DNA of 64,000 nucleotides, taken from the NCBI GenBank assembly GCA_021463865.1, contig JAJTXY010000003.1:1-64000 (forward strand), given 5' to 3'. Both the position numbers and the translations under genes were made by a program. How positions within the stretch are numbered: position 1 is the first letter of the stretch; the number at the start of each line of letters is the position of its first letter. Shown here one piece after another: positions 14,541 through 51,207 of this stretch. Under the pieces are notes generated by a model. That model was not told where the DNA came from. It searched no databases and was given only the letters and a program-made list of their open reading frames with translations. Source of the DNA: Anaerolineae bacterium (GTDB lineage Bacteria > Chloroflexota > Anaerolineae > Aggregatilineales > J027).

Positions 14541-17480
14541 ATGAAGTTAACCTTTTTAGGCGGCGCGGATGAAGTCGGCGCCAGCAGCACTTTAATCGAA
14601 ATCTCCGGCAAACGTTTATTGGTAGACGCTGGGATTCGAATTTCCAGTAGGTCAACGCGCGGCATTGAAAGCGATCAACTGCCGGATTTGCGCCAAATCA
14701 GCGAGGCAGGTGGGCCGGACTATCTGCTTGTTACCCATGCCCACACCGACCATACTGGCGCACTGCCCCTGATTTTGGAGCAGTATCCGCATGTCCCAGT
14801 CATCGCCACAGCCCCAACCCTCGCATTGGTGCGGGTGCTACAAGCCGACGCGCAGATGATTATGAAAAATCGGCATGAGGAAGAAGGCGAACTGCCCCTG
14901 TTTGATGAAATCGCCGTCCAACGCTTACTCGATGCGTTTCAACTGGTCGAATTTCGCCAACCTGTGCGCTTGGGTGACGGTCTACAAGTGACCTATCATC
15001 CGGCGGGGCATATCCTCGGCGCGGCGACACTGGTGATTGAAAGCGATGAGGGTATCCTCACCATGTCTGGCGACCTTTCGATGACTTCCCAACGAGCCGT
15101 CGTCAAGGCCAATCTGCCGCGTGTCAAAAGCGACTTTTTGGTATTAGAAAGCACCTACGGCGGCAAACTCCACGCCAATCGTTCAGCGGAAGAAAAACGC
15201 CTGATTGAAACCCTCAAGGGTGTTGTCGAGCGGGGTGGCAAAGCCATTATCCCGGCGTTTGCATTGGGACGTGCCCAAGAAGTGCTGCAAATCTTGTTGA
15301 ACTTTCGAGATGAAATTGACGCACCAGTGTGGGCCGATGGCATGGTGCGTTCGGTCTGCCGCAGCTATAACCAATTTCGTGACCTGCTACCAGAAAAAAC
15401 GGTCAAATTGGCAGGTGAGGAAGACTTATTTTTCCGCAAAAATGTCAAAGCCGTGCAAAGCCCCGTCCAGCGAGAAGAAATCGCCCGTTCTGAAGGGCCG
15501 GCAATTATCGTGGCAAGCAGTGGGATGCTGACAGGTGGACCATCGGCGGCGTTTGTGCGCTGGTTAGCGGATGATGAACGCAACGCCATTTTCCTGACTG
15601 GGTATCAAGATGAAGAATCACCGGGGCGCTTTGTGCAGCGCATGGTCAAAGAGCGCCAAGAGGGGCAGGAAGTCACACTGCGAATTGATGATGCTTCGGT
15701 TCAATTGCGCTGTGAAATCGGCACCTATTCGCTGTCGGCCCATGCGGATGATTCCGAGTTATTGACGATTGCCGATTCGTTAGGGGCAGAACACGTCGCG
15801 CTGGTACACGGCGACCCCGGCGCACGCAGCACCCTCGCCGCCCATTTACGCGAACGGGGCAAGCATGTCCATATGCCCGTTTCTGGTCGCAGCATCGAAA
15901 TGAAATTCGCGGCACGGCCTTGGGCCTTGGGGGCATTGAAAAAAGGTGGGGAAGCCCGTCCGCTTAATCCGGCCCTGTTATGGGAATCCCTCAAGGAATC
16001 CGCAGGGAGCTATTTTAGTTCACGTGAACTCGCCATCGCATGGTGGGGGGATGAAAACCGAGCCAGTGAAGCAAACGCCATTTTGGAAACCGATGGGGTC
16101 TATTTTGCGGCGGATTGGCGGCGCACCCATACCTACAAAGTTCGCAGTGAGGAGCAGGTCAAACGCACCCAACGCCAGCGTGCGATTATGGCAGCCTATC
16201 CCGACATTGTGGGCAAAATTGTGGTGCTGCGTGATGTCAATGGCAAACCGCGTGTGGGCATTGTGGAAGAAGCCGCGATTGATTCTTTTAAGGCGACGGC
16301 TCTCAAAGCAAAGGGGCGCAATTACCCCGGTGATGCCTTGCTGTGGGTGATCGGCAAAATGGATGATGCGCCGAAAATGGAGGGCAAGGGGCGGATTGCG
16401 ACGCTGAATGCCATGCTGCAACAAGCCGAAGCTATCCGCGATAAGCTTTTGCCATTTGATAAACGCCAAACGCTGGTACGGGCCGCCCAACCGATTGACC
16501 CAACGACGCTTGTCCCCACCCATTTACCAGAAGATGTCCACCCGATGACGGCACTACTGGCGGTAGTGTTATCACTGGCGAAGGATGGGGCAAACAATGT
16601 TGAAGGCAAGTTGCTGCCCTTGCAAGCGCAGGCCGAAGAACCGATGGAAATGAACATCGCCCGCAAGACGGCTGTGGCGGCATTTCCACCGGAGGCCCGT
16701 CTGCGAAAAGCAGGCATGGATACCCTACGCAAGCAGTTGACGCTCTATTTCGATTTCCCCAATCGCGCCACCGAACTCTACAATGAGCAGGTGGAAATGC
16801 TGGCGGAACTGACAAAATGGGAAGTCGTCATTTCGCCGGATGTCAATCAACAAGCCCTCGGCACGGCCCTGATTGAACTACTGCCCCTCGGCGCACAGAT
16901 TGTCAAAGGGCCATCGTTTTTTATTGACAAGGGCGAGGTCGGCGCGGAAATCAGTGGATTAAGCGACCCGGCGGCCTTGATACAGACCTATGAAAATCTG
17001 ACGGGGTTCCGCTTGCTGCTGAATGCCAAAGGGGATAATAATGCCCAAGTTGCCAATATCGGCACAAGCAAGTCACCCGCCAGCAATACTCAAATGGAAA
17101 TCAACGCGGCGTATAAGGTACTTAAAGAGGCCCTTGAACCCTACGGCCTCTATAAAACCAGTCTCAAACAGGGGACGATTGTGTTATCGTTCACTTCGCC
17201 CCAAGTCGGCAGTCGCCATCTGGACACGATTCAACAGTTGGCCGAACAGACGGGTTACGAATTGACGATTCATCCTCACCCCAACCAAAATGCCATTTTG
17301 CAGGTCGCCCAACAGTTGGTACGCCAAGCGAATTTGGCAATCCGTAAAGGGCCAAGCATCCATGTAGATCGTGCTGAGGTGGCCTTCGCGGTGGCGGGTG
17401 AACCGGACGAACAAGATGTGACCCAAATCCAACAGGTTTTTGAAGAAATGACAGGGTATAAGTTGGTGATTACCGTATAG
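14541..17480 (+). CDS. Beta-CASP metallo-beta-lactamase-fold hydrolase with long C-terminal extension
   Basis: The first ~450 residues are a complete RNA-type MBL/beta-CASP nuclease core: THAHTDH (His66, His68, Asp70, His71), HPAGHILGAA, SGDLSM, the RNA-specificity segment IIVASSGMLTGGPS, YSLSAHADD and LVHGDPGA. A 530-residue extension follows. It holds a middle domain (about 475-600; SYFSSRELAIAWWG, YFAADWRRTHTYKVRS) and two copies of a ~105-residue domain (about 723-827 and 872-979) that share NQ-x-A-L/I, KGPS-[IF]-x-[IV]-D and an E-x-x-TG-[FY] ending. Usual family members are 450-550 residues, so 979 is exceptional. RNA or DNA cleavage is likely; the role of the extension is unknown. It lies 21 bases after the binding-protein gene and 11 before the hydrolase. 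Confidence 0.85.
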   Translation: MKLTFLGGADEVGASSTLIEISGKRLLVDAGIRISSRSTRGIESDQLPDLRQISEAGGPDYLLVTHAHTDHTGALPLILEQYPHVPVIATAPTLALVRVLQADAQMIMKNRHEEEGELPLFDEIAVQRLLDAFQLVEFRQPVRLGDGLQVTYHPAGHILGAATLVIESDEGILTMSGDLSMTSQRAVVKANLPRVKSDFLVLESTYGGKLHANRSAEEKRLIETLKGVVERGGKAIIPAFALGRAQEVLQILLNFRDEIDAPVWADGMVRSVCRSYNQFRDLLPEKTVKLAGEEDLFFRKNVKAVQSPVQREEIARSEGPAIIVASSGMLTGGPSAAFVRWLADDERNAIFLTGYQDEESPGRFVQRMVKERQEGQEVTLRIDDASVQLRCEIGTYSLSAHADDSELLTIADSLGAEHVALVHGDPGARSTLAAHLRERGKHVHMPVSGRSIEMKFAARPWALGALKKGGEARPLNPALLWESLKESAGSYFSSRELAIAWWGDENRASEANAILETDGVYFAADWRRTHTYKVRSEEQVKRTQRQRAIMAAYPDIVGKIVVLRDVNGKPRVGIVEEAAIDSFKATALKAKGRNYPGDALLWVIGKMDDAPKMEGKGRIATLNAMLQQAEAIRDKLLPFDKRQTLVRAAQPIDPTTLVPTHLPEDVHPMTALLAVVLSLAKDGANNVEGKLLPLQAQAEEPMEMNIARKTAVAAFPPEARLRKAGMDTLRKQLTLYFDFPNRATELYNEQVEMLAELTKWEVVISPDVNQQALGTALIELLPLGAQIVKGPSFFIDKGEVGAEISGLSDPAALIQTYENLTGFRLLLNAKGDNNAQVANIGTSKSPASNTQMEINAAYKVLKEALEPYGLYKTSLKQGTIVLSFTSPQVGSRHLDTIQQLAEQTGYELTIHPHPNQNAILQVAQQLVRQANLAIRKGPSIHVDRAEVAFAVAGEPDEQDVTQIQQVFEEMTGYKLVITV

Positions 17481-49797: not shown

Positions 49798-51207
49798 ATG
49801 CAAATTTCGTTTCATGGGGCAGCCCGTACTGTGACCGGTTCGCAGCATCTCATTGAGGTCAATGGTTATCGTTTACTCCTCGATTGTGGCATGTATCAGG
49901 GCAAACGCAGCGAGGCCAATGAGCGTAACCGTCGCCTACCCTTTGACCCCAAAACACTGGATGCGATGGTACTTTCTCATGCCCACATTGACCATTCAGG
50001 GAATATTCCCACCCTTGTCAAACGGGGGTATCAAGGGCCAATTTATGCCACTCACGCTACCCGTGATCTTGCGGCGGCGATGCTGCCCGACAGCGGCCAT
50101 ATCCAAGAAAAGGACGCGGAGTTTGTCAACAAAAAGCACAAACGTCGTGGGGAAGCTCCAATTGAACCGCTGTATACTCAACAGGATGCCTTTAATAGCC
50201 TGCGTAATTTTGTCGGGATTAGCTATCAGCAGTCACGGGAGATTTTGGAGGGTGTTCACCTGTCATTGGTAGATGCAGGCCATATGCTCGGTAGCGCGAT
50301 TGTGATGCTCGATATTGAGGATAAAGACGCCGGACGGGACATTCGACTAGTCTTTAGCGGCGATATTGGACGAAAAGGATTGCCCATTTTGCTCGACCCC
50401 ACACCAATTGACTACGCGGACGTGCTGATTATGGAGAGTACCTATGGAGGACGGACGCACGAACCCATTGCTGACCTTGAGGCGGAATTCGCTGAATTGA
50501 TTAATACGGTCTATCAAAAACGGGGCGTGTTGATTATTCCCGCCTTTGCCGTTGGACGCACCCAGCAAATTGTCTACCTTATTCAAAAATTGCACAGCGC
50601 AGGCAAAATTCCCGTACTGCCCGTCTATGTGGACTCGCCTTTAGCGATTGATGCCACGTCGGTATTCAGGCTGCATCCCGAAGCTTATGACTCGGATGTG
50701 CGCGATTATATGCTGACCTATGGGGACGATGATATTTTTGGGTTTGAAAAATTGGTGTATACACGGCGCGTTGAAGAGAGTAAAGCCCTCAACGACATGA
50801 CGGGGCCATTTATCGTGATCAGCGCCAGTGGGATGTGCGAAGCGGGACGTATTCTGCATCATCTTCGCAATCGTATTGAAGACCCCAACAACACCATTTT
50901 AATCGTCGGTTGGCAAGCCCCCGATACGCTAGGCCGTCGTTTAGTAGATCATATCTCACCCGTTCGCATTTTTGGTGAGGAGTACCCCGTCCGAGCAAAA
51001 GTAGTCAAAATGAACGGCCTCTCTGGTCACGCTGATGGTAATGAATTAGTGGATTGGGTCAAGACGATGAAGAAACCGCCACGTCACACATATTTGGTAC
51101 ATGGTGAGATGGAACAGGCCAATGCCCTTTCGCAGCGACTCACTAATGAGCTAAATTTGGAAAAGGTCTCCATTCCCGATTTGCATGAACAAGTCCATTT
51201 CCCATGA
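49798..51207 (+). CDS. Beta-CASP metallo-beta-lactamase-fold RNase
   Basis: At 469 residues this is a standard-size RNA-type beta-CASP protein, a paralogue of the 979-residue protein at 14541. Zinc ligands and motifs are LSHAHIDHSGNIP, DAGHMLGSAIV, FSGDIGRKG, the specificity segment VISASGMCEAGRILHHL and GLSGHADGNEL plus LVHGEMEQ. It should be an endo- and possibly exoribonuclease of the CPSF73/YSH1-like bacterial group. It overlaps nothing and follows rnd by four bases, which supports a joint role in RNA maturation or decay. Confidence 0.9.
   Translation: MQISFHGAARTVTGSQHLIEVNGYRLLLDCGMYQGKRSEANERNRRLPFDPKTLDAMVLSHAHIDHSGNIPTLVKRGYQGPIYATHATRDLAAAMLPDSGHIQEKDAEFVNKKHKRRGEAPIEPLYTQQDAFNSLRNFVGISYQQSREILEGVHLSLVDAGHMLGSAIVMLDIEDKDAGRDIRLVFSGDIGRKGLPILLDPTPIDYADVLIMESTYGGRTHEPIADLEAEFAELINTVYQKRGVLIIPAFAVGRTQQIVYLIQKLHSAGKIPVLPVYVDSPLAIDATSVFRLHPEAYDSDVRDYMLTYGDDDIFGFEKLVYTRRVEESKALNDMTGPFIVISASGMCEAGRILHHLRNRIEDPNNTILIVGWQAPDTLGRRLVDHISPVRIFGEEYPVRAKVVKMNGLSGHADGNELVDWVKTMKKPPRHTYLVHGEMEQANALSQRLTNELNLEKVSIPDLHEQVHFP

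Follow-up and report, generated by a model that had tools for sequence, protein, structure and literature searches.

A bacterial beta-CASP nuclease with a C-terminal array of duplicated KH-like domains related to the N-terminal module of aCPSF1

The window that we analysed is a stretch of 64,000 nucleotides from the genome of an Anaerolineae bacterium (contig JAJTXY010000003.1). It contains a gene whose product combines an N-terminal nuclease core with a long C-terminal region made of repeated domains; the open reading frame is the one given in a preliminary description of the locus, and its features are collected in the table.

Features of the beta-CASP nuclease gene (coordinates are those of the window)
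Feature	Residues	Position	Strand	Remarks
Whole gene		14541..17480	+	979-aa beta-CASP nuclease, C-terminal KH-like array
Metallo-beta-lactamase / beta-CASP / RMMBL catalytic core	1-446	14541..15878	+	Pfam above cut-off
HAHTDH metal-binding motif	66-71	14736..14753	+	sequence; conserved in family
Winged-helix-like segment	478-545	15972..16175	+	sub-threshold Pfam wH_RNase_II; helix-strand pattern in model
Five-stranded small beta-barrel, SH3/KOW-like	~555-606	16203..16358	+	model strands
Helical linker	~618-681	16392..16583	+	model
KH-like unit K1	702-766	16644..16838	+	copy 1, first half
KH-like unit K2	767-828	16839..17024	+	copy 1, second half
Low-confidence inter-copy linker	829-850	17025..17090	+	pLDDT <50; poorly conserved
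KH-like unit K3	851-914	17091..17282	+	copy 2, first half
G-S-R-H at the position of the KH GxxG loop	890-893	17208..17219	+	putative placement, from alignment to aCPSF1 KHb
KH-like unit K4	915-979	17283..17477	+	copy 2, second half; bears the KGPS strand

The core matches Lactamase_B (PF00753), Beta-Casp (PF10996, residues 245-363) and RMMBL (PF07521, residues 387-446), all above the Pfam cut-offs, which upholds the earlier assignment of the protein to the beta-CASP nucleases. The beta-CASP motifs 1-4 and A-C are present, and the motif residues of the core (D29, H66, H68, D70, H71, H157, D178, E203, H401 and H423) are retained in every full-length core sampled, including those of distant members of the family. 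Motif C is a histidine, which is typical of RNA-specific beta-CASP members, as opposed to DNA nucleases. Judging from these motifs, the protein is most likely an RNA nuclease of the beta-CASP family. Two homologues (L122:3496-6496 and L127:1337-4983) are split into two overlapping frames, with the break within the nuclease core, as a result of either a frameshift mutation or an assembly error.

The window contains a second beta-CASP gene (49798-51207, + strand), which codes for a YSH1/TTHA0252-like protein of about 470 residues that consists of the core only. RNase J is also encoded in the same genome, on another contig.

After residue 446, searches of the C-terminal half against the Pfam and NCBIfam profiles return nothing above cut-off. 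The end of the protein is made of two tandem copies, residues 702-828 (16644-17024) and 852-979 (17094-17477), whose relationship is detected by BLASTP (E 1e-12, 28% identity), by shuffling (the score is 123 for a shuffle mean of 28, Z ~19) and by profile-profile comparison (Prob 99.5, E 1.8e-22). The duplication noticed in the preliminary description is thus real, but the length of about 105 residues that was proposed for each repeat has to be revised to about 127, the previous bounds (16707-17021 and 17154-17477) omitting the first helix of each copy. A further, degenerate duplication lies within each copy (comparing first and second halves over 69 diverse copies gives P 7.8e-8), and four alpha-beta-beta-alpha-beta units, two per copy, are predicted in all. 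In profile comparisons K1 matches K3 (Prob 96.5) and K2 matches K4 (Prob 98.9), while K3 and K4 match each other weakly only; since the equivalent units of the two copies match strongly and the halves are also related, the ancestral event was the formation of a pair, which was duplicated later.

The "unfamiliar domain" reported ahead of the repeats does exist, and it resolves into three parts: a winged-helix-like segment, a small beta-barrel and a helical linker. The wH_RNase_II profile (PF25255) is found below threshold in 13 of 23 orthologues (best E 2.3e-4), and the window protein, with 14.9-17.3 bits, does not reach the cut-off of 27. The barrel gives a weak match to Spt5-KOW which is not significant (E 0.53). 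This middle region has no relation to the repeats. The whole region 475-690 is absent from the orthologue L012/L045 (ACE_CHL13), which retains both KH-like pairs; the middle region is therefore dispensable, and the two parts are independent modules.

We modelled residues 458-979, excluding the nuclease core, with AlphaFold (AF2) from the sequences of nine orthologues. The model (pLDDT 83) consists of the winged-helix-like segment, the five-stranded barrel, the helical linker and the four alpha-beta-beta-alpha-beta units; copy 2 modelled alone, from 45 sequences, reaches a pLDDT of 96.4 and a pTM of 0.86. When the 458-979 model is compared with 350,542 PDB chains using Foldseek, the best seven matches are all aCPSF1/FttA (E 1.7e-6 to 2.1e-4), with NusA lower in the list. 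With the model of copy 2, aCPSF1 occupies ranks 1-4, followed by CnfU and the ring-building domain of PrgH, and then by BON proteins (OsmY, DolP) and NusA. The matched regions of aCPSF1/FttA are their N-terminal double-KH modules. The superposition of a whole pair on aCPSF1 is poor (TMq ~0.4, rmsd 8-11), which shows that the halves fit singly and are arranged differently from those of aCPSF1. The predicted structure conforms to the type II KH fold, although other folds of the same topology match it too.

The relation to KH domains is also apparent in sequence profiles. The search of the PDB with such profiles places aCPSF1 near the top, at E values that are not significant alone (0.91 and 0.44), and a narrow profile of the repeats matches aCPSF1 with P ~0.03, 4 of 200 shuffles being equally good. 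The sequence support became decisive once the family was widened to 69 diverged copies, less than 70% identical to each other, which we compared with aCPSF1 N-terminal sequences taken from PDB chain alignments. With this broad profile, the alignment of the first half to aCPSF1 KHb runs from end to end and spans 59 columns, with P 2.5e-6 (100 column shuffles give nothing as good), and the match to aCPSF1 KHa has P 1.3e-4; as a yardstick, the comparison of aCPSF1 KHb with a true KH domain, NusA KH2, gives P 8e-6. The controls run with the repeat profile are far less close: P is 0.009 for BON, 0.1 for NifU and 0.19 for NusA KH1. K3 aligns in register with aCPSF1 KHa. Profile evidence thus relates the first half to KH domains above the level of the control families, and the second half indirectly, solely by way of the first. 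The suggestion, made from the sequence of the window, that the repeats could have a KH-like fold agrees with both the structural matches and the broad profile.

As KH domains, the repeats would nevertheless be atypical. No copy reaches the Pfam KH cut-off, none of the 69 first halves has a GxxG loop, and no correctly placed one is found in the second halves. At the corresponding position of copy 2, the alignment suggests that most Anaerolineae orthologues have G-x-R-[HY] instead. The copies carry a small net negative charge, of -4 each, but the KH pairs of aCPSF1 and NusA are similar in this respect, so that charge fails to separate the copies from genuine KH pairs.

A copy-specific profile finds the pairs in 19 of 396 genomes sampled across the class and in 30 of 400 sampled across the phylum, and every copy examined is part of a beta-CASP protein. 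The architecture is present in several classes of Chloroflexota; a scan of named genomes with strict patterns returned Chloroflexota records only, mostly titled Anaerolineae. A search for plasmid copies of the array found none. In a tree of the cores with two aCPSF1 rows, one Cas14 and seven paralogues as outgroups, all members (43 rows) form one clade on a long branch, with support 100/100, separate from aCPSF1, Cas14 and the bacterial YSH1-like proteins; this is a Chloroflexota clade. The gene neighbourhood is not conserved beyond close relatives and indicates no pathway.

The number of KH-like pairs that follow the winged-helix-like region is 2, 3, 4 or 4.5, depending on the member: two pairs are found in Anaerolineae and several other families, and 3, 4 or 4.5 in the family f78 and its relatives. 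Some genomes encode two such proteins. In four cases (L103, L105, L113 and L115) a protein of 1416-1465 residues has four full pairs and a terminal half pair, that is nine KH-like units, alongside which the same genome encodes another paralogue, with two or three pairs.

In a sister branch, made up of Anaerolineae members (L089 and L091-L096), about 90 additional residues that resemble ParB_N follow the last KH-like pair (for example L095:2123-2401 and L089:5252-5581), and L090 has the same tail according to the alignment. This tail is above the Pfam cut-off in five of seven sequences (best E 3.6e-8) and matches ParB in the PDB (E 1.6e-6), with a DGLYRLRAA motif at the site of the ParB GERR motif. 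In the literature that we searched, we found no ParB-like tail described for a beta-CASP nuclease. A gene coding for a ParA-like ATPase lies near the nuclease gene in L040, L041, L042, L097, L099 and L118, which may bear on the ParB-like tail that other members carry.

The support for the architecture is good. Computation shows the intact core, the duplication, the KH-like fold, the relation to the KH domains of aCPSF1, the spread and the variation in copy number; RNA cleavage by the protein, and contact of the array with RNA or a partner, are inferred. By analogy with aCPSF1, the most probable role of the array is to direct the nuclease to certain RNAs or to partners bound to RNA. We propose, with a probability of about 60%, that the protein is an RNA nuclease equipped with an array of GxxG-less KH-like domains, homologous to the N-terminal module of aCPSF1, which guides the choice of substrate or partner. 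The core would cut RNA endonucleolytically, and perhaps also in the 5' to 3' direction, while the KH-like array would capture and orient a particular class of RNA by multivalent contacts or, alternatively, dock the enzyme on an RNA-bound partner; the number of KH-like pairs would set the choice of substrate. The idea put forward in the preliminary description, that of an RNA-binding clamp which sets substrate choice, is plausible on the same analogy (PMC8716108).

It may be, on the contrary, that the array is a protein-protein scaffold, used for oligomerisation or for docking to the ribosome, RNA polymerase or a degradosome partner, that it makes no contact with RNA, and that the choice of RNA resides in the core and the winged helix. 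We find this rather unlikely, and yet it is a serious rival, for the GxxG motif is missing in all copies; in addition, the ring-building and BON domains that resemble the repeats in structure are modules for assembly, the length of the array varies freely from 2 to 4.5 pairs, and the charge is slightly negative. That charge, however, is like that of real KH pairs, the nearest relative in sequence is an RNA-binding KH pair carried by the same class of enzyme, and copy 2 of the window protein has, at the GxxG site, the G-x-R-[HY] loop with its conserved arginine. A reading in which the repeats merely resemble KH domains, and have an unrelated alpha-beta-beta-alpha-beta fold of the BON or ring-building type, would account for the matches of the models to PrgH, CnfU, OsmY and DolP and for the absence of a Pfam KH match, but it is improbable considering that aCPSF1 comes on top in both Foldseek searches and that the profile match to aCPSF1 KHb is specific with respect to the BON and NifU controls; a BON or NifU identity of the repeats is rejected on sequence.

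It is even less probable that the protein is a bacterial orthologue of aCPSF1/FttA which acts as a transcription-termination nuclease. Both building blocks, beta-CASP and double KH, are common to the two proteins, and aCPSF1 is roughly as near to the core as any beta-CASP protein of solved structure. But this core belongs to its own long-branch clade, apart from aCPSF1, the KH module lies at the other terminus, in repeated form, Rho is present in 29 of the 30 carriers, and the patchy distribution (30 of 400 genomes) argues against an essential general factor, as does the variable gene neighbourhood against a direct role in termination. The replacement of Rho by the nuclease was also considered, and is rejected on account of the same 29 genomes.

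Returning to the reading of the array as a guide to RNA or to RNA-bound partners, we note that in the literature searched the fusion of KH and beta-CASP domains is described only for the archaeal aCPSF1, whose KH pair binds U-rich RNA, recognizing U-tracts, and drives termination, for which it is needed (PMC8716108). The occurrence of homologous KH-like pairs in bacteria, at the other end of the protein and in several copies, suggests that CPSF73-like nucleases acquired substrate guidance more than once. The natural series of 2, 3, 4 and 4.5 pairs makes the contribution of the KH-like repeats to the specificity of a nuclease measurable, and it also bears on whether KH domains that lack GxxG still bind RNA. 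A much more speculative proposal is that Chloroflexota have evolved, in parallel to the archaeal aCPSF1, a KH-guided beta-CASP nuclease which acts on nascent or 3'-end RNA beside Rho, the number of KH pairs being a tunable ruler of specificity, and that in one branch the ParB-like, NTP-binding tail could tether the enzyme to the chromosome.

As far as the searched libraries go, the claim is correct that this architecture is foreign to standard RNase J and CPSF-like proteins. RNase J is a bacterial beta-CASP nuclease too, but the match is limited to the first ~100 residues, and the C-terminal domain is different. The bacterial YSH1-like RNases of the TTHA0252 type belong to the same core family (the match to TTHA0252 is 138 bits), but they stop after the core, at about 430-480 residues, and form a separate branch of the tree. 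Cas14 of type VII CRISPR systems, also a beta-CASP protein, is the best PDB match of the core (E 4e-57, residues 3-444) and matches nothing outside it; the tree gives no support to close kinship with Cas14, which it places on a separate branch. NusA KH1-KH2 has the tandem type II KH fold, with a lower Foldseek match, but NusA has no nuclease and its sequence match covers just 12 residues.

The closest parallel is aCPSF1/FttA (TIGR03675; PDB 3af5, 2ycb, 2xr1 and 9bct), in which a metallo-beta-lactamase/beta-CASP core is likewise combined with a double type II KH module; aRNase J and aCPSF2 have the nuclease domains only (PMC8716108), and the structure of FttA shows the nuclease located where RNA leaves the polymerase (PMC11616081). 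aCPSF1/FttA is an archaeal transcription-termination nuclease, whereas the present protein is bacterial; its core scores 264 bits with TIGR03675, over the core only and below the cut-off of 580.2, and lies outside the aCPSF1 branch in the tree. aCPSF1 has one KH module, at its N-terminus, while in the present family the module is C-terminal, occurs 2-4.5 times, lacks GxxG and is accompanied by the extra winged-helix and barrel segment. We found no description of a repeated, C-terminal KH-like array on a bacterial beta-CASP protein in the open-licence literature that we searched. Since aCPSF1 already joins a double KH to a beta-CASP core, the concept has a precedent: a KH-beta-CASP nuclease is known, and what is new here is its occurrence in a bacterium, with a reiterated KH module that stands at the other terminus.
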